From assembly GCF_026914265.1 (NCBI RefSeq), contig NC_069132.1, forward strand, positions 32,668,932 to 32,732,931: a DNA stretch of 64,000 nt, written 5' to 3'. The translations under genes were made by a program, and so were the position numbers. Below the pieces are notes generated by a model that saw only the letters and a program-made list of their open reading frames with translations, ran no database searches and was not told where the DNA came from. Below, in pieces: positions 4,709-64,000 of this stretch (positions are counted from its first letter, which is position 1; the number at the start of each line of letters is the position of its first letter). This DNA is from Mya arenaria (lineage: Eukaryota; Mollusca; Bivalvia; Myida; Myidae).

Positions 4709-7700
4709 TATGATGTAGTGCGTATCAACCAGATCTATGAGCAGGCCAAGTGGTCCATCATCTCCGAGGAGCTTGACTGTACGGAGGAGGAGGCCATGAT
4801 GTTTGGGGCACTACAGGTACAGAACAGTTTACTTAATGTACACAAAATGTGGCCCATAAGGTGCCATGATATCTATGATCACGTCGTACAATTGCTTATT
4901 TGAATTGATAATAGTATCATGTATACCAGTAACTTAAACTTGAGAGATAATTTTTTTGACCTTCTGATAGTTTGTATTTCATTTTGTTGTACCCTCTTTG
5001 GTAAGATGGCCCCACTGAACATAAGGTACATGAACATACAAAATGAAATCAATATATAGAAAATAACCATAACACATGTGTTCCCAAGATGATGTGTTCA
5101 TCAGAATATGATTGCATCAAATTTTCATTGAGGAAATGACAGCAGGAGTGTAAATGTCAGTTTTATTTCGGGATAAAATCAGTGATGCCCTGGAAACTGC
5201 TTGCATGCACTTGTTTTCGTTAGTTTTAAGGTATGTGTAAGATATGTACATAACATGATTATACATATATTCTTTAGGTCCAAATCCAGCTGCAGTCAGG
5301 CGGAGTAGGAGGGTCAGATGTGATTGATGGAAGTCGGGATGAGGGGCGTGATGACATTGATGCCGCCCTCAGTAACCTGCAGGAGTCCCTAGAGGGCAGC
5401 TCCCTGGCCTCACCTGGTGATATCACCAAGGTCCCTGAGCTGGCTGACTATGTCAAGTTCTTGAAGTAAGGACTATACTTGCTACTGTTGTATTTGTTGC
5501 TGTAAAACACTTTGAAGTTTAGTCACTGTGCATAATGCCAACTATGTCAAGTTCTTAATGTAAGGATGTTGTGATATTTTATTAAATACCCTTTGATGTT
5601 TAGTTGATGTGCATAATGATGACTATGTCAAGTTCTTGAAGTGTACACAAGATTCTAGTCTCTCTGTCTAAAACATTGATCAGCATTATATTGATGAATT
5701 ATTATTGAGTACATCGTATGCCATGCGTAATTATATATATAAAAAATGCTTTCATATAAACCAAATAAATCATAAACCAATAAACATATAAAAATCAGGT
5801 GGTATGTCTTTGAGGAATCCATTGTATTTGACATGTTTACCCTGCAAAGTGCTGAAACAGAAATACGTCAGTTGTAGCAAGAAATAAGGACAATCTCATG
5901 GATAAGCTGCATTTCTCCATTCTCTGATTTTTACATTTGAGGCCCTATGAGCTGTTTTATTTCCCTTAAACTAACTTTAGGCAAATAATTTTGTGTTGTA
6001 GATTTCACTTTATAATTGAGTAGTTAACCCACATAAATTGAATCAAAATTTCATGTACAAAATAATGAATAACGCTTGAAAATTTCAGACCTAAGAAGTT
6101 CACATTGAAAAGCTACAAGCGGTACTGGTGCACGTTTCGGGACACCAATGTGGCTTTCTACAGATCACAAGAAGATGCAAATGGGACACCCATCAACAGG
6201 ATCAACTTCAAAGGTAAAGGAAATCAAAGGGTGCATGATTATGTGAACTGGTAGTTTTCATTCTTTACATTGGTTAGAAACTTAGAATCAAAAGATAGCA
6301 TACTGGTATACAGTAAGATAGAAATTGACATGCTGATATAAATACTAGCATCTAGTTACCAATAATAATGAGAGATGTACTAGTCACATGATAACCCAGG
6401 ACGAAACAATGAACTTGGGTTCAGTATATTCTTATGTTAAACAAAGTATGTATTTCTCGAGGGCTGTCATAATCCGATTTTAGCGTTATATCTAGAATGA
6501 TAGAGGTCATGATGAGACCTTTATATGTATAAGTTTCTTCTCAGGGGCGATGATTATGAACAGTCTCATATCTGAGTTCATACTGTAGTGGCAAAACTGC
6601 AAATCTTCATTTAATAACTGTAAATTTCTTTCTAGAAAAACACAACACAAACTGTATACTTGAAACAAATTTTTTTTTTAATTGTCATATAATAAAAGTA
6701 TTCTTCTGGGTCTGAGTTTAGACTAAGACTGAAGATTGTTCGTAATCATGGTGCCAGGTCACAGACTTGAGAGTGATTTAATGATCTATCATCTTTCATC
6801 ATAATTAAACAAACATAGGTTAGTTTTAAACTAAATGATAGTGCATACCGGCTTGCATCCTCATAATGGACATGAGGGGCCATAATCCATAACCAACTTA
6901 GACCTAATTTAGTGGAATCAGAGTGATTTGATTGGACTGTAAGAATCCGGAAATTGGATTGGCATGATTATCTATGCTGAGTAATGAACCAAACTGTGAT
7001 GAATATTTGCAGGATGTGAGGCCCATCCAGATGTTAACCTGCATCACGGGAAATACGGCATCAAGCTGTATATCCCTGCTTCTGAGGGCATGGAGGAGAT
7101 TTGGCTCAGATTTGACGATGTAGGTTCCTCATGTGTTTGATGGCTTGTTTAGGGGTATTTGTAATTTATTGTGGAAAATATCAAAGTAATGTCACCACCT
7201 ATGATTTATGTTTGAAGCCATTGTAAAAACATTTCAATATACTGGTACCTGATTCGGGAAGATAAGATGTCTGGCAAAGCCTTGGTAAATTCTTGTGACA
7301 TTCTATTTATATTATGAACACTATTTTAAAGATTTATAGCGCTAAACGACTTAATTTCTTAATGATGTCATGTCAAGTATTATTACACTAGTGATATACA
7401 AAAAATATATAATTTCATGGTGCCATTAGTGCGATAACATGATAAAAATAGGAAACCTTCATGTAAATCTAACATAAATAATAAAAAAAAATGATAATGA
7501 AGGAAGTCACAAACTCAAATCAATCTACAACATGTTAATCTCATTCTCTAGGAAGAGCAGTATTGTAAATGGATGGCTGCTTGCAAGCTTGTGTCAAAAG
7601 GAAAGACAATGGCCGATGCCTCGTTCGACTCCGAGGTGCAGTCACTGCAGAAACTGCTGAGTATGCAGAAAACTACGAGCAGTCCAGAGAAGAAAATAGA

Positions 7701-9195
7701 CACACCAAACCAGCTGGATATTAACTCGGAGGACTTTGTGTCACCCAGGCACTTCAAGAAAGTTAAATCAAAACAGGTGGGTGTAATGCTTATGAATCTG
7801 AATGTTCATTCCCAAGCCTTTCTACAGAGAGTAAAAACCAACATCTGTTTTGCATGAGGATGAAATGTCATGATGTAGTAATATGTCATTATTTGCTATC
7901 TGATCAGATAAAATTCTTTCCCAAAATGCTAACAGGCCATACACAGACACTATTCATTGTATGTTTAGGTTATTATTTTTTTCGTCTGTTATTGTCATAG
8001 CCTTGGCTTCGTTAAATTGACATCATTGTCAGCGTGCAAAAATTTAACCTTTTCCATAACTGATAAACAAGATATTTGAAACAAACTTAGTAAACAATTT
8101 GCCAGAGATAATACAAATATGTTAAGCGAGGCCCATAAATCTGGCTATAATAATTGTTGAATTATCCCCTTTTTTACTGAAAAAAACAACAAAAGGCAAG
8201 TGTTGGCATTTCTGAAGGAGCTCTTTATTATAGTAGTACATCTATTATGTACTCATCAATATGTTTTCTTTAGATTGTCCATCGCATAATGGAGGCCCAC
8301 ACAAATGTGCGTGACATGGGGTTGGTGGATGCAAAACTGGCTTATATCCGCGCATGGCAGGCTCTCCCAGAGTTTGGCGTCTCCTATTTCATTATTAAGA
8401 TGAACGGCAGTAAGAAAGAGGTATGTTTGCGTATCAATTACTGAAGATAGAACTAAAGATATATATGGCATGTAAAAGCTAGTAATTGGTTGCCTTTATG
8501 TTCAATTTTTTTCTGGTTGGTTACTATGTGTTCAATCTAAATCTAAAGAAGCCTGACACCAAAATAACATAATTATAAATGCATTCTATGAGTATTTAAT
8601 TGAATTGATAAAAGTTATCCTCCCATGTCATAATTAATTCCAGGTCTATAGCTGACAAAGAATAACAGTTTACTTAAGGGTTGTTCAGGAATGCTTATGG
8701 AAAATAAGTGTGATTGACACAAACTTTCTTGTTTGCAATGTTTGGTACACTCATAGTAATATTTTACACACGTAAAGTATTTTGTTATCTGGACATAGTA
8801 ATATTTTTCACGTGTAAGAAAAGATTTTGTTATCTTGACATAGTAATACATTTCACATGTAGAAAAATATCTGGATATCTTGACTATTGTTAATGTGTTT
8901 TCAGGAACTCATTGGAATTCATCCTAACAAAGTGATCCGAATGGACCTTAACAGTGGGGATTCGCTGAAGACCTGGAGATATGATGGCCTGCGTTCATGG
9001 CGTGTGAACTGGGAAGTGCGCGAAGTAATCCTCGACTTTGAGGAGGGCAAAGTACAGTTTTCATCTCTGAGTGCTGATTGTAAAACAGTGCATGAATTCA
9101 TCGGGGGTTACATTTTCTTGTCAATGAGGTCGCAAGATAAGAATCAGTCACTGGACGTCGAATTGTTTCATAAGCTTACCGGTGGACGATTGTAG
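4709..9195 (+). CDS. FERMT2: Kindlin (fermitin) C-terminal part: F2, PH and F3 regions; 5' end outside window
   Basis: Seven exons join in phase: 4709-4816, 5278-5465, 6089-6213, 7013-7119, 7552-7776, 8274-8420 and 8905-9195 (TAG), giving 396 residues. Kindlins are FERM proteins that bind integrin beta tails at focal adhesions and co-activate integrins with talin. The first exon reads [14 protein letters not shown] and DCTEEE, a kindlin F2 signature. Next comes an acidic linker, then a PH domain ([13 protein letters not shown] to [13 protein letters not shown]) inserted in F2, then F3 ending [20 protein letters not shown], nearly as in vertebrate kindlin-2. At the position I recall as the vertebrate Gln-Trp integrin-contact pair, the sequence reads RSW, so Trp is kept and Gln is Ser. 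Vertebrate kindlins are about 680 residues, so roughly 280 N-terminal residues (F0, F1, start of F2) lie outside. Molluscs probably have one kindlin; the symbol names the closest vertebrate type. Confidence 0.95.
5446..5642 (+). repeat. Triplicated exon end with splice donor in kindlin
   Basis: The exon that ends at 5465 finishes with GACTATGTCAAGTTCTTGAA followed by GTAAGG. Near-identical copies lie in the following intron at 5541-5565 (ends in a GTAAGG donor-like motif) and 5621-5642 (followed by GTGTAC). The spacing is about 94 and 81 bp, so this is a short diverged tandem array that starts inside the coding exon and carries its 5' splice site. Confidence 0.85.
8745..8890 (+). repeat. Short tandem repeat just upstream of the last kindlin exon
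   Basis: Three imperfect units of about 55-60 bp share CATAGTAATA, a TTTCACACGT-like core and TTGTTATCTTGAC. They end only about 15 bp before the acceptor at 8904. No function is evident. Confidence 0.6.
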
Positions 9196-18575: not shown

Positions 18576-21500
18576 TCATTTCCCCTTTTTCCCCGACGAA
18601 TCACCCCGCCACAACATGTTTTTAGAATTTTCCAACTTTCCGTAGGGATTAAAAGGTCTGTTTAGGTTCATGCTTTTGGAGAGTGCGTGTATATACCGGC
18701 TGTTACGGCCATCGTTCCCGGGGGTAGAGGGGAGTGGCGGTAGGCTCTCTGCGCGGGAGGAGGAGCCACCATACGTTCCTCCGGCACCGCCGCCACCGCC
18801 TCCGCCGCCAAGGCTGCCCTCAAGCCGCTGCATCTGCTCTTGAATCATCCCTATCTGTGCCTGCTGAAAATTGAGCTGCCGCTGTTGGGCCGCCATCTGT
18901 GAAGCCGCCTCGTCTTTTTCTTCATGTAACTGGATGATGTCATTCGCCTGTAGATTTATTTTCTTTGTCAACTTCTCTTGTCCGTCAACTAGAGTCTTAT
19001 GTTCTCCAACCACACGTTCGATCATGGCCAGCTTGCTGACAATTTTCTCCTCCTGTGACCTCATCTTGGCTTCCTGTTCGGTCAGCTGATCTCTGAGCCG
19101 CCCCAGCTCGCCGTTCCGTTCCCTCAACTCGCTCTCCAGCTCGTGGCGCTCCCGCACGCCCTTCCGTAACTGCTCGTTCTCAATCTGCAATCGCGTCACC
19201 TGGCGGAAACAATGACATCATTGCATGTATTGTAACTTTTTGACGAATCAATTAGACGAAGGGTTTTTGTTATTCTCTACAGTTTGTTTAATATATTGTA
19301 CGCCCTTTGTTACATACATATGATACAATTGTCTTTTAACATTGCGTTCTATAACGCATTCCGTTAAATATTATATCACTCAGTACGTGATATTGTTTAA
19401 AGCATACCGTACGGCACCGTACCACAACACAAACCGTATCCAGGGGAGGTTCCAGGAGTCGACGTTAGAGGGGCGTAACTTAGAGGCGTAACGTTTTGAC
19501 TAACGCCCTCTATCAGAACCGAAATTAATTAAAGTGTTGGCAGGGGGGTACTCCCCCGAGAAAATTTTATCAATTTCTAGTCCGATATTGTGGATTTTGA
19601 ACGTATTTTATTTCTTCTCCAATATTAAAATAAAAAGTAAACTTGGACGATTTTAGGGGATCCGCTAGTGGTAGCGCACGGTACCTTTTCCGTATATTTA
19701 TTGTTGGTTTCTCTGAGTGAGGACATGGCTTTCTGCAGCTCGAGGTACTTCCGCTGCATGGCAACTAGCTCCTCGTCGCGGCTCCGCAGCTGCTCCCGGA
19801 GACCAAGCTTCTCCTGCCGCTCGGCTATCAACATGTCCTTAGCACGGTCCAGGGACTTCATCACCTGGCGAAAAACATTTCACAATATAGCACGGTCCAG
19901 GGACTTTATCACATTGGGAAAACGTTTCACAATATAGCACGGTCCAGGGACTTTATCACCTGGGGAAAACATTTCACAATCTAGCACGGTCCAGGGGCTT
20001 TATCACCTGGGGAAAATATTTCACAATTAGCATGGTCCAGGGACTTCAATGCATTGGGGGAAAACATTTCATAATCTAGCACGGTCCAGGAACTTTATCA
20101 CCTTGGGAAAACATTTCACAATATAGCACGGTCCAGGGACTTTATCACCTTGGGAAAACGTTTCACACTAAAGCACCGTCCAGGGACTTTATCACCTGGG
20201 AAAAAAAAACATTTCACAATCTAGCACGGTCCAGGGACTTCACCACCTGGGAAAAAAAACATTTCCCAATTAGCACGGTCAGGGACTTTATCACCTGGGA
20301 AAAAAAACATTTCACAATCTAGCACGGTCCAGGGACTTTATCACCTGGGGAAACATTTAACAATCTAGCACGGTCAGGGACTTTATCACCTGGGGAAAAC
20401 ATTTCCCAATTAGCACGGTCAGGGACTTTATCACCTGGGGAAAACATTTCCCAATTAGCACGGTCAGGGACTTTATCACCTGGGGAAAACATTTCCCAAT
20501 TAGCACGGTCAGGAACTTTATCACCTGGGGAAAAAAAACATTTCCCAATTAGCACGGTCAGGGACTTTATCACCTGGGAAAAAAAACATTTCACAATCTA
20601 GCACGGTCCAGGGACTTCACCACCTGGGAAAAAAACATTTCCCAATTAGCACGGTCAGGGACTTTATCACCTGGGAAAAAAAAACATTTCACAATCTAGC
20701 ACGGTCCAGGGACTTTATCACCTGGGGAAACATTTAACAATCTAGCACGGTCAGGGACTTTATCACCTGGGGAAAACATTTCCCAATTAGCACGGTCAGG
20801 GACTTTATCACCTGGGGAAAACATTTCCCAATTAGCACGGTCAGGGACTTTATCACCTGGGGAAAAAAACATTTCCCAATTAGCACGGTCAGGGACTTTA
20901 TCACCTGGGAAAAAAACATTTCACAATCTAGCACGGTCCAGGGACTTTATCACCTGGGGAAACATTTAACAATCTAGCACGGCCAGGGACTTTATCACCT
21001 GGGGAAAACATTTCCCAATTAGCACGGTCAGGGACTTTATCACCTAGGGAAACATTTCACAATCTAGCACGGTCAGGGACTTTATCACCAGGGGAAACAT
21101 TTAACAATCTAGCACGGTCAGGGACTTCATCACCTGGGGAAAACATTTCCCAATTAGCACGGTCCAGGGACTTTATCACCTGGGGAAACATTTAACAATC
21201 TAGCACGTTCAGGGACTTTATCACCTGGGGAAACATTTAACAATCTAGCACGGTCCAGAGACTTCATTAACTAAGGGAAATAAACACTTCACTTAAACGA
21301 GGAAAATTCAAAACAGCGCAGGGCCTTTGCGTTATATTTGCCCGAAGTTTGTCATAACGGTCCAAGTGGTAAATGCACTAATATGGAGGGCGACATAGTA
21401 CAGACAGCATTTGTTTACACTAAAAAAAGAAAGAACAAAATACACCAATGACACGATATCTTAACGAGTTTGTGAGCTTGTATAAAAAATGAATACACAA

Positions 21501-24500
21501 GCAATACCTACATGTACCCGGACATTTTTACTCCAGTTTCTGCTTACAAAATCAATACATAAATGAGTTGCTTCTCCATTTCGTACTGGTGCTCCACGAT
21601 GAAGGAAACACTTATTTGGCGGAATGGACTTACCGACAAGTAAGGACTAAAATGTGTACCTTGACGAGTTGCTTCTCCAGTTCATACTGGTGCTCCACGA
21701 TGAAGGAAACACTTATTTGGCGGAATGGACTTACCGACAAGTAAGGACTAAAATGTGTACCTTGACGAGTTGCTTCTCCAGTTCATACTGGTGCTCCACG
21801 ATGAAGGAAACACTTATTTGGCGGAATGGACTTACCGACAAGAAAGGACTAAAATGTGTACCTGGACGAGTTGCTTCTCCAGTTCATACTGGTGCTCCAC
21901 GATGAAGGAAACACTTATTTGGCGGAATGGACTTACCGACAAGAAAGGACTAAAATGTGTACCTGGACGAGTTGCTTCTCCAGTTCATACTGGTGCTCCA
22001 CGATGAAGGAAACACTTATTTGGCGGAATGGACTTACCGACAAGAAAGGACTAAAATGTGTACCTGGACGAGTTGCTTCTCCAGTTCATACTGGTGCTCC
22101 ACGATGAAGGAAACACTTATTTGGCGGAATGGACTTACCGACAAGTAAGGACTAAAATGTGTACCTGGACGAGTTGCTTCTCCAGTTCATACTGGTGCTC
22201 CACGATGAAGGAAACACTTATTTGGCGGAATGGACTTACCGACAAGAAAGGATTAAAATGTGTACCTTGACGAGTTGCTTCTCCAGTTTATACTGGTGCT
22301 CCACGATGAAGGAAACACTTATTTGGCGGAATGGACTTACCGACAAGTAAGGACTAAAATGTGTACCTGGACGAGTTGCTTCTCCAGTTCATACTGGTGC
22401 TCCACGATGAAGGATACAAATATTTGGCGGAATGGACTTACCGACAAGTAAGGACTAAAATGTGTACCTGGACGAGTTGCTTCTCCAGTTCATACTGGTG
22501 CTCCACGATGAAGGAAACACTTATTTGGTGGATTGGACTTACCGACAAGAAAGGACTAAAATGTGTACCTGGACGAGTTGCTTCTCCAGTTCATACTGGT
22601 GCTCCACGATGAAGGAAACACTTATTTGGCGGAATGGACTTACCGACAAGTAAGGACTAAAATGTGTACCTGGACGAGTTGCTTCTCCAGTTCTTGTTGG
22701 CGTTCAACAATAACGGAGAATTCTCGCTGGGAGGCTTTGGCGTCCCTGGAGAGGGCGCTGAGGGCCATCTTCTTCCCCTGCACGCTGAACCCGTCCACTA
22801 CCGAGTCACGCTGAGACCAATGCTCCCGTAACAGCTAAACGATACAAATTATAAATGTAAGTTTGTTTCACGTCGGATTTAGAATTTAACAGTCGAGGAA
22901 CATAATTTTCAACACGCCCCCACTCGAAATTCCAGTTTTCTATATTTTAGAAAGGACGCGGATTCCATGCTGATCCAGAGTCCAAAACATTGACCACTCG
23001 GACATCGTCAGTGTTACCAGCAAAACATGAAGATTTAGAAGCCTGTGAATGTATGACCGAATCTACAATGACGAAGCCTTCTTTTGCCACGACGCTTAAA
23101 TGACTCAATACAACTCTTTGGCATGATGTAACAGCATACCAGGACAAATTTTGATAAAAATAAATAAATCATAGAGCAATGAGAAAAAGAAACTTATTTG
23201 ACTGGGTGTGGTAACACGTCATATAAAGTAACACGTTAATATAAGTAAAGCCGAGTTTCTATTATACTGACTGCTCCTGGGAATATTCTAATCTTGTGGA
23301 AACCTGTGCTGCTGAATCAAAGATTAACACTGGATTGAGGCAATTATTTAAGACTTCAAATCTTCAAAATCTTAAATGTGTTTTAGTGTTTACGCTCATG
23401 TCGCTTCACATAGAATCGCAGCTAAACATATAGATAATACCTGTGCATTTAACAAAGAATAATTATGCTTTCGCGCGGAAACACTATAATCCAGCTTAAT
23501 ATTAAATTGAACATTATTTCCCATGTTTTTCACAGATGTTTTAAAATGAAAACAAATAAAACACTTTAAAACACAACATACTTTAGGTACTATCTGCTCT
23601 TCACTTAGCAAGACAGAGATTAAGAAAATTCAACTTTTTTTAAAATATCCTTTTAAAATGTCAACCTTTTCGGTTTAGTCGCTGTAATTCATTATTCTAT
23701 ATATGTATCCAAATTTCAGAAGGGGTATCAGGTTTTCAAGTCATCTTTGTTTATTGTGAATATCAAATATTCCACGATTGATCATAAGATAATAAATGCT
23801 AATCAATTTAAACTGCCAAATGGTGTGCACTTGACTGGATACGAGTTCTGATCGGTTCACTGTCGTACAGAAACAGTTATTCGACATTTTTTGTGTGTTA
23901 AATATTAGTCAATAATGCCTCAACACAGCAAATTATCATATAATTATCATAGAAATTTTGTTGTCTAAACCGGAGCTCTGGATAAAAGAATTTTGTTCAA
24001 ATCCCTAAGAATCCAGCCAAGTTTATTTTCGAGGTTGCGGTGACTATTCATAATGCATTTTAGTTTTGTTTTTGTTTTTTAAGTAAATTGAATGAAAAAA
24101 AAACACCAATGTGTTACGCCAAAAATATGAAAATTAACAAAGAAAGGGTCAACAATTAATTGCATATATGAATAAATTCTATGAAAAATACAGGATATTA
24201 AAGGTATTTGATGTTCAAAATTCATATATTTTCAAAAAAAAATCACTAAGAAGCTATATATGAATACGGCCCCTGTCAAATTCCTCCAGTCGGGAATCAC
24301 CCGGCCCCAATTTCAAGAAACGCCTTAAGCTTAACGGGATTATTTTAACTGGCCAAAATACATACTTAAATGTGATTTTGATAAAAAAAAATGGTTTATT
24401 GTGATAACCATAGAAGTAATTCCTATCTAAAGACTTTTAACACTTAATGAAGTTAATATTACGCGAAATAAAGACAAAGCAATATAGTGAGATGAACTTG

Positions 24501-26221
24501 ATCATGTTATAGGGGACTAAAGAAGTTTCGAGAAACTGAGGCCAGCTGTCTTAAGTCTTCTAAATATCCGCCGCACTGTCAAGGCACCATATTGCTAGGT
24601 AAATTCACATTGAATTGATGGGAATGAACTCCTGCTTTGGTGTCATTTGTCCTGTTCAAAATTTAGTGACATTTAACCTAATATGTATATGTTTTTCTTC
24701 AGATTTATCAAAAGGGTCACTCCTACCAACTAGACATTTCGAGATTTTCAGACATTGTTGAACTGCAGTAGTTCATAGTTATTTTATGCTAGATAGTTGG
24801 TAGGAGTGACCCCTTTGATAAATCTGAAGAAAAAATATATATTAGGTTAAATGTCACTAAACTTTGTACAGGTCAAATGGCACCAAAGCAGGAGTTCATA
24901 CCATCAAATCACTGTGGGTAAATTTGCCAATTTCAAAAGACTTCATTACTCATTAGTCGATGGTTTCTTATGGTTTTGGTCTGCATACATTTGTTTTGAT
25001 ATAAAAAATACTAAAAAAAGAAGTTCGGATGTATATAGATACATACCCGGGGGGTGGTATTTCCGTGGACGTCGGAAAACTCTGCAAACAGTCAAAAAAT
25101 GGTTGAGAAAACAAACGTGAAACACAAACAAATGGAATATTATGCGAGTCGGTTGATCTGTGGGGTTGCTTCACGTCAGGGTGATTGCGTAAAATCCAAT
25201 TGCACGAGAGACCAACAAATGCAGCATCACATATCAATCGACCAGCATAGTATTGCTTTGATGTCATTTATTTAAGATATATATGATAGAGAAATGGCAA
25301 AACGTTTTCTTTAAAAAAAACACCTCCAAATTCGACGACAAACGTCTTAATTATCATGCGTATTGTTGCCAAAGTAGATTTGCGCATGCGCACTAGGCTA
25401 CTGTGTGATACGGAATCAGAAAACGCAGTTCGAAGTACAGAAACTATTTTTAATGTCCATAGTTTATCTTTAAATCATCTATTTTAGGGAGTAAATTTAA
25501 TATGTATGAATTCACTAAAGAATAATTTGTAAGTCGGTTGATCTATGCGTTTGTATCACTTGGTTGCGTAAAGACTATATCGCGCGAATCTCTATAACTG
25601 ATACCTGGTACGATCGACGATAAATTTGCGTCCCCCTTCAGAGCGTCCACGATGTTGGTGTAGCCGTGCTCTTGCAGCGTCTCGCAAAGGCTGCGGTACG
25701 CCGGCCCGCTTCCCTTCATCACTTCCTGTACACACAGCTCCACCTGTGCACGTGGCGTGCCCTGTCGCATGACGTCACTTCCAGCGTCTGCACTAATCAC
25801 GCCTTTCTGCACGAGCGAGTCTACGACGCTGTTAACATTGATTTCTTCTCGTAAGGTCAGTAAATACCTGAAATTATATACTAAAGACTGGTAATTCAGA
25901 CCACAGAAAAACCGACCCAATGAAATAGTTTAACGGTTCTAAAAATATTAATAAAGGGGGCGCCTGTGATATTATATTCAGTAAACCATATGCATTTTAA
26001 TACTGTTTTTCGAAATTAGCTTTCTTATGTTCGGCCATTTCAAACTATGGTAACTGACATTTTGTTTTAGGAAAAACAATTTTAGCATCTGAGACAAACA
26101 ACATCAAGGCTTACTTTAAGAAGTCCCACTGTCCTTCGAACGCCTCATCGCTGTTATGCGAATCCCTGTCCTCCTCAACCGAGAAACGGACTCGCTTAAC
26201 TTCCGCCGTCGGCGTCGCCAT
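18576..26221 (-). CDS. CARD domain plus coiled-coil protein (five exons found)
   Basis: Exons on the minus strand: 26221-26115 (ATG), 25867-25605, 22834-22670, 19864-19685 and 19199-18576 (stop), about 446 residues. Exons 1-2 encode MATPTAEVKRVRFSVEED and then a six-helix CARD-like domain (INVNSVVDSLVQKGVISADA, RAQVELCVQEVMKGSG, YRSLCETLQEHGYTNIVDAL). Exons 3-5 are almost continuous coiled coil (RQQELEKQLVQ, EKLGLREQLRSRDEELVAMQ, ENEQLRKGVRERHELESELR), then a poly-Gly run and a basic, Ser/Pro-rich tail ending GKKGK. CARDs mediate homotypic assembly in apoptosis and innate signalling; CARD plus coiled coil recalls CARD9/CARD11, but I cannot claim orthology. Exons 3-4-5 join in phase 0. Exon 2 with a CAG|GTATCA donor ends in phase 1, so an exon may be missing in 22.84-25.60 kb or a weaker ATC|GTACCA donor is used. 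The exon 3-4 intron is largely tandem copies of its own splice junctions. Confidence 0.75.
19868..21265 (-). repeat. ~47-bp minisatellite built from the exon-4 acceptor junction, ~30 copies
   Basis: Read on the minus strand, each unit is roughly TTTTCCCCAG followed by GTGATAAAGTCCCTGGACCG and TGCTAGATTGTGAAATG. The first part is a 3' splice site and the second matches the start of exon 4 (GTGATGAAGTCCCTGGACCG at 19864). The array abuts the real acceptor. Units vary in A-run length and by one missing C. A block of about eight units around 20.2-20.55 kb recurs about 380 bp later, so a higher-order repeat has formed. Confidence 0.9.
21564..22669 (-). repeat. 101-bp tandem array built from the exon-3 donor junction, ~11 copies
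   Basis: Units repeat at exactly 101 bp (homologous positions at 21654, 21755, 21856 and so on to 22563), nearly identical, with a partial unit at the left edge. On the minus strand each unit contains GAACTGGAGAAGCAACTCGT then CCAG|GTACAC, identical to the 3' end and donor of exon 3, which ends at 22670. A second donor-like motif, TCG|GTAAGT, lies in each unit. Plus-strand frames through the array only reflect the repeat. Confidence 0.95.
22835..25604 (-). other. Intron between CARD exon and first coiled-coil exon
   Basis: No clear exon was found, although the phase mismatch between flanking exons would be solved by one of length 3n+2. The main structure is a long inverted repeat at 24.6-24.9 kb. 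The rest is AT-rich. Confidence 0.4.
24615..24907. mobile_element. Foldback element with ~115-bp inverted arms
   Basis: The left arm (from TTGATGGGAATGAACTCC) and right arm (ending GGAGTTCATACCATCAA) are imperfect reverse complements for about 115 bp, with a central spacer of roughly 50-60 bp. Shared blocks include CTCCTGCTTTGGTG, TAGTGACATTTAACCTAAT, CTTCAGATTTATCAAA and GTCACTCCTACCAACT. There is no coding potential, so it is a MITE or foldback transposon. Clear target duplications were not identified. Confidence 0.85.
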
Positions 26222-27004: not shown

Positions 27005-30000
27005 TGATGACGTAGCGCACACAACGTAGACGTAGCGCACATAAAATAGACATAGCGCACACAGAGTAGTGTAAAGCATACAAAGTAGACGAAGAAGTGT
27101 AACGCATACAAAGTAGACGTTACGCAAACAAAGTATACGTAGCGCACACAACGTAGACGTAGCGCATACAACGTAGACGAAGCGCATACAAAGTAGCACA
27201 TACAACGTAGACGTAGCGCACACAAAGTAGCGCACACAAAGTAGTGTACCGCATACAAAGCTGACGAAGCGCACGCAAAGTAGACGTAACGCACACAAAG
27301 TAGTGTAGCGCATACAAAGTAGACATAGCGCACACAAAGTAGATGTAGCGCATACAACGTAGTGCACACAAAGTAGTGTACCGCATACAAAGCAGACGTA
27401 GCGCACACAAAGTAGACGTAACGCACACAGAGTAAACGTAGCACACACAAAGCAGACGTAGCGCACACAAAGTAGACGTAACGCACACAAAGTAGACGTA
27501 ACACACACAAAGCAGACGTAACGCACACAAAGCAGACGTAGCGCACACAAAGTAGACGTAACGCACACAGAGTAGACGTAACGCACACAAAGTAGACGTA
27601 GCGCACACAAAGTAGACGTAGCGCACACAAAGTAGACGTAACGCACACAGAGTAAACGTAGCACACACAAAGCAGACGTAGCGCACACAAAGTAGACGTA
27701 ACGCACACAAAGTAGACGTAACGCACACAAAGCAGACGTAGCGCACGCAAAGTAGACGTAACGCACACAAAGTAAACGTAACACACACAAAGTAGACGTA
27801 GCGCACACAAACGAGACAAAGTAGTGTAGCGCATACAAAGCAGACGTCGTGCACACAAAGTAGGATGTTGCGCTCATAAAATAGACGTAACGCACACAAG
27901 GTAGTGTAGTGCATACAAAGTAAACGTAGCGCACACGAAGTAGACGTAGCGCAAACTATTTAAACGTAACGCATACAAAGTAGACGTAGCGCATACAACG
28001 TAGACGTAGCGCACACAACATAGACGTATCGCATACAACGTAGACGTAGCGTACACAAAGTAGCACATACAAAGAAAACATAGCGCACATAAAGTAGACG
28101 TAGCGCATACAACGTAGATGTAGAGCCTACAACGTAGCGCACACAAAGTCGACGTAGCGAACACAACATAGACGTAGCGCACACAAAGTAGACGTAGCGA
28201 ACACAACGTAGACGTAGCGCATACAACGTAGACGTAGCGCACACAACGTAGCGCACACAAAATAGTGTACCGCATACAAAGCAGACGAAGCGCACGCAAA
28301 GTAGAGATAACGCACACAAAGTAGTGTAGCGCATACAAAGTAGACATAGCGCACACAAAGTAGATGTAGCGCATACAACGTAGCGCACACATAGTTGTGT
28401 ACCGCATACAAAGTACACGTAGCGCACGCAAAGTAGACGTAACGCACACAAAGTAAACGTAGCACACACAAAGTAGACGTAGCGCACACAAACGAGACAA
28501 AGTAGTGTAGCGCATACAAAGCAGACGTCGTGCACACACAGTAGTATGTTGCGCTCATAAAATAGACGTAACGCACACAAGGTAGTGTAGCGCATACAAA
28601 GTACACGTAGCGCACACGAAGTAGACGTAGCGCAAACGATTTAGACGTAACGCATACAAAGTAGACGTAGCGCATTCAACGCAGACGTAGCGCACACAAC
28701 TGAGACGTAACGCATACAACGTAGACGTAACGTACACAAAGTAGCGCATACAAAGAAAACATAGCGCACATAAAGTAGACGTAGCGCATACAACGTAGAT
28801 GTAGAGCATACAACGTAACGCACACAAAGTCGACGTAGCGAACACAACGTAGACGTAGCGCATAAGATGTAGACGTAGCGCACACATCGTAGCGCACACA
28901 AAGTAGTGTACCGCATAAAAAGCAGACTAAGCGCAACACGAAGTAGACGTTGCGCATACAATGTAGACGTTGCTCATACAAAGTAGACGTAGCGCACACA
29001 TCATAGACGTAGCGCACACAACGTAGACGAAGCGTACACAACGTAGCGCACACAAAGAAGTGTAGCGCATACAAAGTAGACGTAGCGCACACAAAGTTAA
29101 GTAGCGCATACAAATTAGACGTTGCGCACACAAAGTAGACGTAGCGCAAACAAAGTAGACGTAGCGCACAAAAAGTAATGAAGCGCATACAAGCAGACGT
29201 AGCGCACAAAAAGTAGACATAGCGCACACAAAGCAGGGTAGCGCATACAACGTAGACGTAGCACACACAACGTAGTGTCGGGTACACAAAGTAGGCGTAG
29301 CGCATACAAAGTAGAAGTAGGGCAAACAAAGCATTGTAGCGCATATAAAGTAGACGTAGCGCACACAAAGTAGTGAAGCGCATACAAAGTAGTCGTAGCG
29401 CACATAAAGAAAACGTATCACACACAAAGTAGACGTAGCCCACACAAACGTGAAAAAGTAGTGAAGCGCTTTCAAAGTAGACGTCACGCACACAAAGTAG
29501 ACGTTGCGCACACAAAGTAAACGTCGCGCACGTCGCGCACACAAAGTACACGTCGCGCACACAAGGTATACGTCGCACACACAAAGTGGACGTTTCCCTC
29601 ACAAAGTAGACGTAGCGCTCACAAAGTAGACGTAGCTCATACAACGCAGACGTAGCGCACACAACATAGACGTAGCGCATACAAAGTATATGTAGCGTAC
29701 CTAACGTAGCGCACACAAAGTAGACGTAGCGCATACAAAGTAAACGTAGCGCACACAAAGTAGTGTAGCGCATACGAAGTAGACGTAGCGCACACAAAGT
29801 TAAGTAGCGCATACAAATTAGACGTTGCGCACACAAAGTAGACGTAGCGCAAACAAAGTAGACGTAGCGCACAAAAAGTAATGAAGCGCATACAAGCAGA
29901 CGTAGCGCACAAAAAGTAGACATAGCGCACACAAAGCAGGGTAGCGCATACAACGTAGACGTAGCACACACAACGTAGTGTCGGGTACACAAAGTAGGCG

Positions 30001-32748
30001 TAGCGCATACAAAGTAGAAGTAGGGCAAACAAAGCATTGTAGCGCATATAAAGTAGACGTAGCGCACACAAAGTAGTGAAGCGCATACAAAGTAGTCGTA
30101 GCGCACATAAAGAAAACGTATCACACACAAAGTAGACGTAGCCCACACAAACGTGAAAAAGTAGTGAAGCGCTTTCAAAGTAGACGTCACGCACACAAAG
30201 TAGACGTTGCGCACACAAAGTAAACGTCGCGCACGTCGCGCACACAAAGTACACGTCGCGCACACAAGGTATACGTCGCACACACAAAGTGGACGTTTCC
30301 CTCACAAAGTAGACGTAGCGCTCACAAAGTAGACGTAGCTCATACAACGCAGACGTAGCGCACACAACATAGACGTAGCGCATACAAAGTATATGTAGCG
30401 TACCTAACGTAGCGCACACAAAGTAGACGTAGCGCATACAAAGTAAACGTAGCGCACACAAAGTAGTGTAGCGCATACGAAGTAGACGTAGCGCACACAA
30501 AGTAGACGTAGCGCACACAAAGTAGTGTGGTGCATACAAAGTAGACGTAGCGCACACAACGTAGGCGTAGTGCACACAAAGCAGTGTAGCGCATACAACG
30601 TAGACGTAGCGCATACAATGTAGACGTAGCGCATTCAACGTAGTGTAGCGCACACAAAGTAGGCGAAGCGCATACAAAGTAGACGTAGCGCTCACAAAGT
30701 AGTGTAGCGCACACAAGGTAGTGTAGCGTACACAAAGTAGTGTAGCGCATATAAAGTAGGCGTAGCGCATACAAAGTAGACGTGGTGCACACAAATTTGT
30801 GTAGCGCACAAAAAGTAGACGTAGCCCACACAAAGTAGACGTAGCACACACAAAGTAGACGTAGCGCAGACAAAGTAGACGTAGCACACACAAAGTAGAT
30901 GTAGCGCACACAAAGTAGACGTAGCGCATACAAAGTCGACGTAGCGCATACAAAGAAGTGCAGCATATACAAAGTAGACTTAGCGCACACAAAGTAGACG
31001 TAGCACATACAAAGTAGACGTAGCGCACACAAAGTAGACGTAGCACACATAAAGTAGACGTAGCGCACACAAAGTAGTGTAGCGCATACAAAGTAGACGT
31101 AGCGCACACAAAGTAGACGTAGCGCATACAAAGTAGTGCAGCGCATACATAGTAGACGTAGCGCACACAATGTAGACGTAGCGCATACAACGTAGACGAA
31201 GCGACCACAACGTAGACGTAACGCATGCAACTTAGACGTAGCGCACACAAAGTAGACGTAGCACATACGAAGTTAAGTAGCGCATACAAATTAGACGTTG
31301 CGCACACAAAGTAGACGTAGCGCAAACAAAGTAGACGTAGCGCACAAAAAGTAATGAAGCGCATACAAGCAGACGTAGCGCACAAAAAGTAGACATAGCG
31401 CACACAAAGCAGGGTAGCGCATACAACGTAGACGTAGCACACACAACGTAGTGTCGGGTACACAAAGTAGGCGTAGCGCATACAAAGTAGAAGTAGGGCA
31501 AACAAAGCATTGTAGCGCATATAAAGTAGACGTAGCGCACACAAAGTAGTGAAGCGCATACAAAGTAGTCGTAGCGCACATAAAGAAAACGTATCACACA
31601 CAAAGTAGACGTAGCCCACACAAACGTGAAAAAGTAGTGAAGCGCTTTCAAAGTAGACGTCACGCACACAAAGTAGACGTTGCGCACACAAAGTAAACGT
31701 CGCGCACGTCGCGCACACAAAGTACACGTCGCGCACACAAGGTATACGTCGCACACACAAAGTGGACGTTTCCCTCACAAAGTAGACGTAGCGCTCACAA
31801 AGTAGACGTAGCTCATACAACGCAGACGTAGCGCACACAACATAGACGTAGCGCATACAAAGTATATGTAGCGTACCTAACGTAGCGCACACAAAGTAGA
31901 CGTAGCGCATACAAAGTAAACGTAGCGCACACAAAGTAGTGTAGCGCATACGAAGTAGACGTAGCGCACACAAAGTAGACGTAGCGCACACAAAGTAGTG
32001 TGGTGCATACAAAGTAGACGTAGCGCACACAACGTAGGCGTAGTGCACACAAAGCAGTGTAGCGCATACAACGTAGACGTAGCGCATACAATGTAGACGT
32101 AGCGCATTCAACGTAGTGTAGCGCACACAAAGTAGGCGAAGCGCATACAAAGTAGACGTAGCGCTCACAAAGTAGTGTAGCGCACACAAGGTAGTGTAGC
32201 GTACACAAAGTAGTGTAGCGCATATAAAGTAGGCGTAGCGCATACAAAGTAGACGTGGTGCACACAAATTTGTGTAGCGCACAAAAAGTAGACGTAGCCC
32301 ACACAAAGTAGACGTAGCACACACAAAGTAGACGTAGCGCAGACAAAGTAGACGTAGCACACACAAAGTAGATGTAGCGCACACAAAGTAGACGTAGCGC
32401 ATACAAAGTCGACGTAGCGCATACAAAGAAGTGCAGCATATACAAAGTAGACTTAGCGCACACAAAGTAGACGTAGCACATACAAAGTAGACGTAGCGCA
32501 CACAAAGTAGACGTAGCACACATAAAGTAGACGTAGCGCACACAAAGTAGTGTAGCGCATACAAAGTAGACGTAGCGCACACAAAGTAGACGTAGCGCAT
32601 ACAAAGTAGTGCAGCGCATACATAGTAGACGTAGCGCACACAATGTAGACGTAGCGCATACAACGTAGACGAAGCGACCACAACGTAGACGTAACGCATG
32701 CAACTTAGACGTAGCGCACACAAAGTAGACGTAGCACATACGAAGTAG
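27005..32748. repeat. 5.7-kb satellite of ~20-bp units with higher-order repeats
   Basis: The basic unit is GTAGACGTAGCGCACACAAA (20 bp), with 19-bp variants such as GTAGTGTAGCGCATACAAA. There are roughly 280 units. The sequence from 29096 recurs at 29799 (703 bp on) and 31272 (1473 bp on). The two 1473-bp blocks 29799-31271 and 31272-32744 appear essentially identical, and the 29096-29798 block is a shortened copy. In the left half a 681-bp period links about 27.86 and 28.54 kb. The minus strand has no stop in the unit in any frame, which creates long artificial open frames with a 20-residue period. Confidence 0.97.
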
Positions 32749-32942
32749 ACTACATGTACGCCGTACAAGTGGGATTCTGTATCATTCTTTATCAAAAGAT
32801 ACACTACCTTTGTTTAACCACTATTTTACATGTAAAATTTTCATATCTGTGGGAGGAATGCGCTAGTTGTGAAATGTGTGGCCACATGTATCCAGAGGTT
32901 TGTCAAACTGTGGCACGTGATAGCCGTTGTCAAACGTATATA

Positions 32943-45784: not shown

Positions 45785-47220
45785 CATGATAAGCCCATTT
45801 CGGACAGTGATGGGACATTCACCCACCCATATCGGGAAGTGGTGGGACACTCAACTCCCAATTTCAAAGAGTAATGGTGGCATGCACCAACCCATTTCCA
45901 TTGTGATGAGACATGCGGTCACCCATTTTGTTAGGCGATGCGCATGCGCCCACCCATTTCGGCAAGTGTCCAAGTATTCCAACCTAGTCATATGCCAGTG
46001 TTGTATATATATAACATCCGATTTCCTGCATATGTGATATATGGCAATATCACCTGATTCAATGCCAATGTGACATATCATGGCTTTATCACATGATTAA
46101 ATACCAGTGTGATATATCATGGCTCCATCACGTACCTGATTTAATGCCAGTGTGACATATCATGGCTTTATCACCTGATTCAATGCCAGTGTGATATATC
46201 ATGGCTTTATCACCTGCTTCAATGCCAGTGTGACATATCATGACTTTATCACCTGATTCAATGCCAGTGTGACATATCATGGCATTATCACCTGATACAA
46301 TGCCAGTGTGATATATGATGGCTTTATCACCTGATTTAATGCCAGTGTGACATATCATGGCTTTATCACCTGATTCAATGCCAGTGTGATATATCATGGC
46401 TTTATCACCTGATTCAATGCCAGTGTGACATATCATGGCTTTATCACCTGATTCAATGCCAGTGTGATATATCATGGCTTTATCACCTGATTCAATGCCA
46501 GTGTGACATATCATGACTTTATCACCTGATTCAATACCAGTGTGACATATCATGGCTTTATCACCTGATTCAATGCCAGTGTGATATATCATGGCTGTAT
46601 CACCTGATTCAATGCCAGTGTGATATGATACATTTTCACCTGTTACTATTCTATGTTAATATGGGGCATTTCCACCTGTTTTATGACAGTGTGAGATGGG
46701 GAATATCCATCTACTTTTATGCCAGTGTGATAAGGCGCATTTCCATCTGATTGGTTTTCCACCTGGTCCTCTATCAGTGTCGGATTTGGGACATTTCACC
46801 TTTTATCATATACCAGCGTGATATGGTATATTTTCACCTGGTTCAGTGCCACTGTAATAGTGAACATTTACATCGTTTATACAAGTGTGATGTGGGGAAT
46901 GTTCACCTATTTCTGCGTCAGTGTGATATGCGGGTATTTCTATATTGTTCTACGCCAGTTTGGTATGGAACAGTTCCACTAAGTTCCATGCCGGTGTAAT
47001 ATGAGGAAGTTCCATCCAGTTATATGCCAGTGTAATGTGGGTAATTCCACCTAATTTTAAGTGTGTGCAAAATTAGGCATATCCCCCTGGTTCAATGCCA
47101 TTTCGATATAGGGCATTTCCACCGGGTCCTCTGCCAGCAATTTATTGGGATTTCAGCCTAGTTCTATGCCCGTGCGATATGGGGAAATCCACCTGATTCT
47201 ATGCCAGTGTTATGCCGTGA
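45785..47220. repeat. 39-bp minisatellite with a homogeneous core and decayed edges
   Basis: The core (about 46,060-46,625) repeats ATCACCTGATTCAATGCCAG plus TGTGATATATCATGGCTTT every 39 bp. Successive units tend to alternate GATATATC and GACATATC, so a 78-bp dimer is partly visible. On both sides (45,785-46,050 and 46,625-47,220) the units become diverged and length-variable but keep CCA(G/T)TGTGATATG and CATTTCCACC-like blocks. The 154-residue minus frame in it is a by-product. Confidence 0.93.
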
Positions 47221-62734: not shown

Positions 62735-64000
62735 AGAGGGCCATGATGGCCCTAAAACACTCACCTAAAGAAAGAGCCACAACTCTGTGATAAAGCATAA
62801 ATAAAAATGTTACAATTTAAACATATCTTTACTGATGACAATGCCTCGATTTATATTTGTAAAGGGTCATGCAAGCTATCTGTTAAGTTTTATTAAATTT
62901 GGCCTGGTTGTTTCAAAGATTTTTTTTAAAGCAAAACAGTAAGTCAGCCATTTTGTTGTTGTTGTTGTTGTTGTTGATCAATCTCAATGCCTTGTTGTAT
63001 TTTTGTAGAGGGTCATGCAATGAAGCTTCCTGTAAAGTTTCAGTGAATTTGGCCTGGTAGTTTCAGAGGAGATGGTTTTTTTAAAGCAAAAAAGGAGGTC
63101 GGCCAGATTGTTGTTGTTGTTGATAAATTGTGACCCCTTGTTGTGTTTTTGTAGAAGGTTACCCAAGGAAGCTTCCTGTAAAGTTTCATTGAATTTTGAC
63201 TGGTAGTTTTAGAGGAGATGTTTTTTTATAGCAAAACAGGAAGTTGGCCATTTTGTTGTTTTTGTTGTTGTTGTTGATCAATCGTGACCCCTTATTGTAT
63301 TTTTGTAGAGGGTCACCCAAGGAAGCTTCCTGTAAAATTTCATTGAATTTGGAGTGTTAGTTTCAGAGGAGATGTTTTTTTTTTAAAGCAAAACAGGAAG
63401 TCAGCCATTATGTTGTTGCTGTTGTTGTTGTTGTTGATCAATCGTGACACCTTGTTGTATTTTTGTAGAGGGTTACCCAAGGAAGCTTCCTGTAAAGTTA
63501 CATTGAATTTGGATTGGTAGTTTCAGAGATGATGTTTTTTTAAAGCAAAACAGGAAGTAAGCCATTTTGTTGTTGTTGTTGTTGATCAATCATGACCACT
63601 TGTTGTATTTTTGTAGAGGGTTACCCAAGGAAGCTTCCTATAAAGTTTCATTGAATTTGGACTGGTAGTTTTAGAGGAGATGTTTTTTAAAAGCACAACA
63701 GGAAGTTGGCCATTTTGTTGATGTTGTTGCTGCTGTTGATGATCAATCATGACCCCTTGTTGTATTTTTGTAGAGGGTCACCCAAGGAAGCTTCCTGTAA
63801 AGTTTCATTGAATTTGGACTGGTAGTTTAAGAGAAGATGCTTTTTAAAGCAAAACAGGAAGTCGGCCATTTTGTTGTTGTTTTTGTTAATCAATTGTGAC
63901 CCCTTTTTGTTTATTTGTAGAGGGACACCCAAGAAAGCTTCCTGTGAAGTTTTATTGAATTTGGCCTGGTAGTTTAAGAGGAGATGCTTTTTAAGCAATT
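62735..64000. repeat. ~150-bp tandem repeat with (GTT)n runs, continuing past the window
   Basis: Units of 148-157 bp share TTGTATTTTTGTAGAGGGTC, CCCAAGGAAGCTTCCTGTAA, TTTGGACTGGTAGTTT, AAAGCAAAACAGGAAGT and a variable GTTGTTGTT run. AAGCTTCCT recurs near 63021, 63169, 63324, 63481, 63632, 63788 and 63937. The left edge begins with GAGGGCCATGATGGCCCTA then CACTCACCT, the same small hairpin head as the repeat at 58.94 kb. It lies in a seipin intron. Confidence 0.93.

Follow-up and report, generated by a model that had tools for sequence, protein, structure and literature searches.

Tandem copies of both splice junctions fill most of one intron in a CARD/coiled-coil gene of the soft-shell clam Mya arenaria

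How can an intron be removed correctly when about 90% of it consists of copies of its own two splice junctions? Intron 4 of a CARD/coiled-coil gene in Mya arenaria (genome assembly of 1.216 Gb in 18 contigs) raises this question. The gene lies on the minus strand, at 18576..26221 of a 64,000-nucleotide stretch of contig NC_069132.1 (contig positions 32668932-32732931; hereafter the window, whose coordinates are used throughout), and has six coding exons (26221-26115, 25867-25605, 25081-25047, 22834-22670, 19864-19685 and 19199-18576). Joined and translated, these give the 457-residue Mya protein P0001 letter for letter. The database name of P0001 is 'keratin, type I cytoskeletal 10-like'; the frame of exon 2 shows a weak CARD match at positions 25-98, which stays below the Pfam cut-off (E 8.2e-4). 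Intron 4 (19865..22669) is a phase 0 intron of 2,805 nt. It is flanked by coding exon 4 (22670..22834, 165 nt, 3' end ...CTCGTCCAG) and coding exon 5 (19685..19864, 180 nt), both as joined in P0001. The native 5' splice site is CAG/GTACAC (22668..22669; the slash marks the border), the native 3' splice site is TTTTTCGCCAG/GTGATGAAG (19865..19866), and a second Mya protein model, P0002, has the same KQLVQ/VMKSL join. An earlier sequence-only reading had set the exon borders at 22670 and 19864, and both are indeed modelled borders in the two proteins; its numbering of the flanking exons needs correcting, from 3 and 4 to 4 and 5 in the set of six coding exons. We consider it probable that intron 4 is a neutral, double-ended 'mirage', in which two independent junction minisatellites fill the intron and the outermost pair of sites is spliced.

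At the donor end, Tandem Repeats Finder (TRF) reports an array at 21565-22693 (1,129 bp, period 101, 11.2 copies, 97% matches), the outer edge of which, read from the sequence, lies 24 nt into the exon that ends at 22670. Each 101-bp unit comprises about 50 exon-like nt and 51 nt of intron, and the array is made up of the native junction, ten intact copies and one decayed distal copy. Eleven GTACAC junctions follow each other at a spacing of exactly 101 nt, from 22669 to 21659; AG/GT is found in 11 of 11 intact units and has been lost from the twelfth, decayed one. The ten decoy 5' splice sites (21658..22568; first bases 22568, 22467, 22366, 22265, 22164, 22063, 21962, 21861, 21760 and 21659) are preceded by CAG in seven cases and by AAG in three. 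Every unit, the native one included, carries an extra TCG/GTAAGT 26 nt downstream of the junction. Between each of the ten intronic copies and their consensus there are only 0-3 differences over 101 positions, which points to a young expansion. The last 24 exon nt at the native donor are identical to the consensus unit, and the preceding 26 match it at only 16 positions (in the same register; shuffle p 1.8e-4), so that the seed duplication looks old. In that stretch the donor unit encodes SFIVEHQYELEKQLVQ and the native exon SVIVERQQELEKQLVQ, and the two peptides remain similar. The pattern suggests that an old duplication of about 50 exon nt and 51 intron nt seeded the array, that the native junction and the array later exchanged the last 24 exon nt, in one direction or the other, and that the expansion was recent. 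A DNA search, which skips very common words, found the donor array at a single place in the genome, and a mobile-repeat origin of this half was rejected on that result.

A non-repeat spacer of 272 bp (21293..21564) separates the donor array from the acceptor array (19840..21292, 1,453 bp). TRF reports the latter at 19840-21264, or to 21292 in a reading with a 377-bp period (period 45, 30.4 copies, 87%), and its outer edge in the sequence lies 25 nt inside the exon that begins at 19864. There are 31 copies of the 45-51-bp unit, namely thirty units and the native junction. The exon part of a unit is the 25-nt GTGATAAAGTCCCTGGACCGTGCTA, often one G shorter (the native counterpart being GTGATGAAG), and the intron part is about 21 nt long and ends in a T/C tract and, mostly, AG; AG is present in 28 of the 31 copies and CAG/G in 24. 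Because the 377-bp period scores highest in TRF, the array must contain a higher-order repeat. Judged by eye, this repeat lies mid-array and the units become more varied toward the exon. Column by column, the thirty units show 0-5 deviations over the first 14 nt of the exon part. The counts are 0-1 for the 8-nt block of the exon part that closes with GTGCTA, 0-2 for the motif AAATGTTT on the intron side, and 5, 1 and 2 for the final three positions. For the A and the G of the AG the counts are thus 1 and 2 out of thirty units, inside the range of those first 14 columns, and give no sign of special conservation of the decoy AGs. In both halves, then, arrays of the size first described (about 1.1 and 1.4 kb, with some 300 bp between them) are anchored at an exon border and hold exon bases together with the splice signal, as had been claimed. 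A genome search with P0001 listed five matches (best candidates only), all within the CARD gene locus, and a paralogous source of the arrays was rejected because the matches listed point to this locus only. The motif CAGGTGATAAAG of the acceptor array also occurs in a 39-bp array of 15 copies at 46037-47000, beyond which lie decayed CAGGTG units. Since the older-looking units there lack CAGGTGATAAAG (by eye), we take the likeness to be probably chance rather than kinship.

Minisatellites that span intron/exon boundaries are described from several amphioxus genes under the name 'mirages', which is credited to work on Adh3 (PMC3087553). Intron 4 has the corresponding anatomy: the repeat unit crosses the boundary and takes in exon bases (24-50 exon-like nt in a donor unit and 25 in an acceptor unit), all intact donor units and 28 of 31 acceptor copies carry splice signals, and concerted inner units are accompanied by divergent ones at the edges (the decayed distal donor copy; the higher-order repeat and varied edges of the acceptor array), again by eye. 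We infer that two unrelated minisatellites arose, each from a tandem duplication straddling one splice junction of intron 4, and that slippage or unequal exchange may later have enlarged them. Selection would keep the true exon at the outer edge of its array, and everything inward of it would be intron and therefore free to expand and decay; the decayed far end of the donor array counts in favour of this. The spliceosome would use the outermost donor with the outermost acceptor, and inner copies would be ignored or would lead to non-productive RNA. The signature of intron gain by AGGT duplication is absent: intron 4 starts with GTACACATT where exon 5 starts with GTGATGAA, and it ends with TTCGCCAG where exon 4 ends with GTCCAG.

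What would the copies do if they were spliced? Counting the native sites, the region holds 22 donor-like and 28 AG-bearing acceptor sites, so the many competing sites that the sequence-only reading had foreseen are present. Among the 616 possible donor-acceptor pairs, the native outermost pair alone keeps the reading frame and the full-length protein. As the other 615 break the frame, the suggestion that the arrays tune isoforms is not supported, and neither is a role in buffering splicing, since no decoy pair can stand in for the native one. Inner sites, if used, are expected from the frames to yield non-productive RNA products. Both Mya protein models found use the native pair, and all 39 homologous proteins compared run across the junction region without a gap or an insertion. 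This set includes the two Mya models, named bivalves such as Dreissena, Mactra and Ruditapes, and a large number of unnamed sequences, some of which are fragmentary. Since native and decoy sites have their local signals in common, it must be context that singles out the outermost pair, if that pair is indeed the one chosen. With flanking exons of 165 and 180 nt, the outermost pair is what exon definition predicts; under intron definition the favoured sites would be the innermost ones, the donor at 21659 (or GTAAGT at 21633) and the acceptor at 21270. Pairing of one array with the other, which would loop the intron, was ruled out, as no inverted repeats of at least 25 nt were found in 19000-23600.

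Could two such arrays have come to lie on one intron by coincidence? The sequence-only reading held this to be unlikely, and random placement agrees in part: arrays of 1,129 and 1,453 bp dropped into the window both fell on CARD gene borders in a fraction of 6.75e-5 of 400,000 trials, an estimate that is post hoc, concerns two of the five arrays of at least 300 bp and did not demand the same intron. Locally, then, the intron is striking. On the other side, the genome is rich in arrays. Elsewhere in Mya, 25 arrays (TRF period at least 15, at least 2.8 copies) make up 12.5% of a 220-kb sample, drawn as 10-kb stretches from ten other chromosomes (20 stretches) and from the flanks of the window (two stretches); at this density, and with 1.2 Gb available, we would expect that such introns could arise a few times without special cause. 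A 57-bp satellite runs across one entire 10-kb stretch (L013 1-10000), its unit containing TGTGTTTTTACAG, an acceptor-like motif. By eye, none of the 25 arrays is a clear border array, a check in which no more than two open frames were considered for each array end (38 in all, none of them searched against protein families). Three candidates were rejected: the array at 8774-8884 in the window stops 20 nt short of a kindlin-like exon, the acceptor-like units at L018 8408-8652 have no exon at either end as far as seen by eye, and the array at L032 1346-1405 ends before its exon. The first of these lies among plus-strand frames at about 6072-9195 of the window, which are convergent with the CARD gene, have a weak PTB match below the cut-off and presumably resemble a kindlin-type gene.

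Borders were also surveyed with a single probe. Of the CARD gene's ten inner borders, the two at intron 4 gave 11 and 13 copies and the other eight a single copy each. In five myosin loci, the same probe found no repeated 36-mer at 103 of the 110 ends of coding blocks. These blocks (55 after merging) were identified by comparing the loci, some of which are paralogues, with one another; their ends are only roughly exon borders, and one block may hold more than one exon. The seven flagged ends, with 2-4 copies, all lie in locus L031, where block starts are 441-743 bp apart, and look like duplicated exons rather than arrays. In that myosin gene (L031 1715-3662), four coding blocks spaced 0.4-0.7 kb apart have ends with similar 36-mers and are likely duplicated alternative exons.

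Several points weigh against a neutral mirage with outermost splicing. The Mya protein models that use the native pair may rest on prediction. The native pyrimidine tract scores 8 of 12, compared with 10-11 of 12 in ten of 30 tracts (one of these ten without AG), and CTAAT stands 21-25 nt before the end of the unit in 12 of 30 acceptor units and is missing from the native one; the native acceptor is thus not the best local signal, and local signals leave the ignoring of inner sites unexplained. By the account in PMC3087553, the globin authors propose that mirage copies can be recruited as exons, in intron gain, and one lancelet PGBD5 gene model, described in PMC3902484 as without transcript support, takes repeat copies as an exon. 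That two arrays sit on one intron and none at 110 sampled ends could also indicate a local or border-linked cause. The same signals lend themselves to a reading in which decoys are used: some transcripts would pair inner sites, meet premature stops and decay, and array length would tune gene output. This would suit the seven of ten intronic donors that share CAG/GTACAC with the native site, the many acceptor copies with a longer pyrimidine tract or CTAAT, and the 615 out-of-frame pairs. We nevertheless find it unlikely, given that the decoy AGs show no extra conservation and that, according to PMC3087553, the globin authors suggest regular splicing for the Adh3 and globin mirages. In a more restricted form of use, the donor units would act as tandem 27-nt microexons (YELEKQLVQ), variable in number, that extend the coiled coil without breaking the frame. 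Each of the ten intronic donor units does have a CAG 27 nt upstream of the junction, followed by an open, phase 0 segment that ends at the donor (putative microexons CAG/TATGAACTGGAGAAGCAACTCGTCCAG/GT and variants, 21660..22595), and these segments are the only other in-frame option that was sought and found. Against them, the stretch before the CAG (GTGGAGCAC) is purine-rich, nine residues are out of step with the heptad register of a coiled coil, and none of the 39 homologous proteins, two of them from Mya, has an insertion there, which makes microexons scarcely credible. Taken together, use of the arrays in either form, by draining transcripts into non-productive RNA or by in-frame inclusion of microexons, strikes us as quite doubtful; if true, the length of the arrays would act as a heritable control of how much CARD protein is made or of how long its coiled coil is.

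The origin of the arrays invites two further explanations. A replication, repair or transcription-linked process that favours exon-intron borders, making arrays commoner there than elsewhere in genes, would fit two independent arrays on one intron that start 24-25 nt inside the exons, the rarity of such placement in the random trials, and the border arrays of several amphioxus genes. It sits poorly with the single copies at eight of the ten CARD gene borders, with the lack of any such array at the 110 myosin block ends and with the many arrays away from borders. Survivorship, too, places arrays at borders, because copies on the intron side are harmless, and the same data fit a border-favouring process and ordinary minisatellite birth alike; we regard the former as improbable. 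Misjoined or inflated arrays in the assembly would be another cause, as long arrays assemble badly. Yet the variants that mark the units are distinct and ordered, a higher-order repeat runs inside the array, and the exons on both sides are complete and in the right order, all of which makes an artefact very unlikely.

The window holds other repeats and frames. Some 790 bp upstream of the start codon modelled for P0001, a 20-bp unit (GACGTAGCGCACACAAAGTA) is repeated about 290 times in an array of 5.7 kb (27009-32750), inside which longer periods are reported as well. A 157-bp tandem array at 62873-63998 reaches the window edge, and a minus-strand frame at 48156-48488 matches the InaF motif (PF15018, E 3.7e-6, over the cut-off).

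The double array would provide a good natural test of how cells pick the correct splice site. Because native and decoy sites have identical or nearly identical local signals and only the outermost pair is productive, intron 4 is a natural experiment on exon versus intron definition: under the former, the site taken would be the nearest border of an exon of 165 or 180 nt, and under the latter it would be the innermost pair, 389 nt apart for GTACAC-type donors.

How does intron 4 compare with known systems? In the amphioxus cases (Adh3, BflGb6, BflGb9, TnC and PGBD5), as presented in PMC3087553 and PMC3902484, the unit likewise spans the boundary and many units carry AG or GT; either boundary may be affected, and edge units escape homogenisation. 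BflGb6 has 6 and 3 units in two haplotypes, with repeats possible at either boundary, and Adh3 data together with the globin authors' reverse-transcription PCR suggest no interference with regular splicing (PMC3087553). In PGBD5, repeats of 60 and 108 bp lie at splice sites, and TnC is cited alongside (PMC3902484). Mya differs in being a bivalve mollusc and in having both boundaries of one intron affected, the comparison with Adh3 being through the later papers, and its 11 intact donor and 31 acceptor copies contrast with the 3 and 6 of the BflGb6 haplotypes and up to 7 in PGBD5. Intron gain by AGGT duplication, as described for potato RdRp (PMC4974935) and in the Rogers model as given in PMC3087553, also involves tandem duplication with splice signals; there the duplication makes the intron, whereas in Mya each junction is arrayed with its own intron side. 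No mollusc case of junction arrays appeared in the literature searched, mollusc and bivalve terms included, which was mostly titles and covered few subscription papers. The nearest cases outside amphioxus seem to be human genes of segmental duplications with variable internal tandem repeats (PMC2812944), where minisatellites also occur at exon-intron boundaries and are discussed as sources of new splice patterns. By the description in that source, the human repeats alter exons or form novel introns, whereas in Mya a pre-existing intron has been filled and the modelled protein is unchanged. Intron 4 thus extends the mirage pattern to a mollusc, with both ends of a single intron affected.

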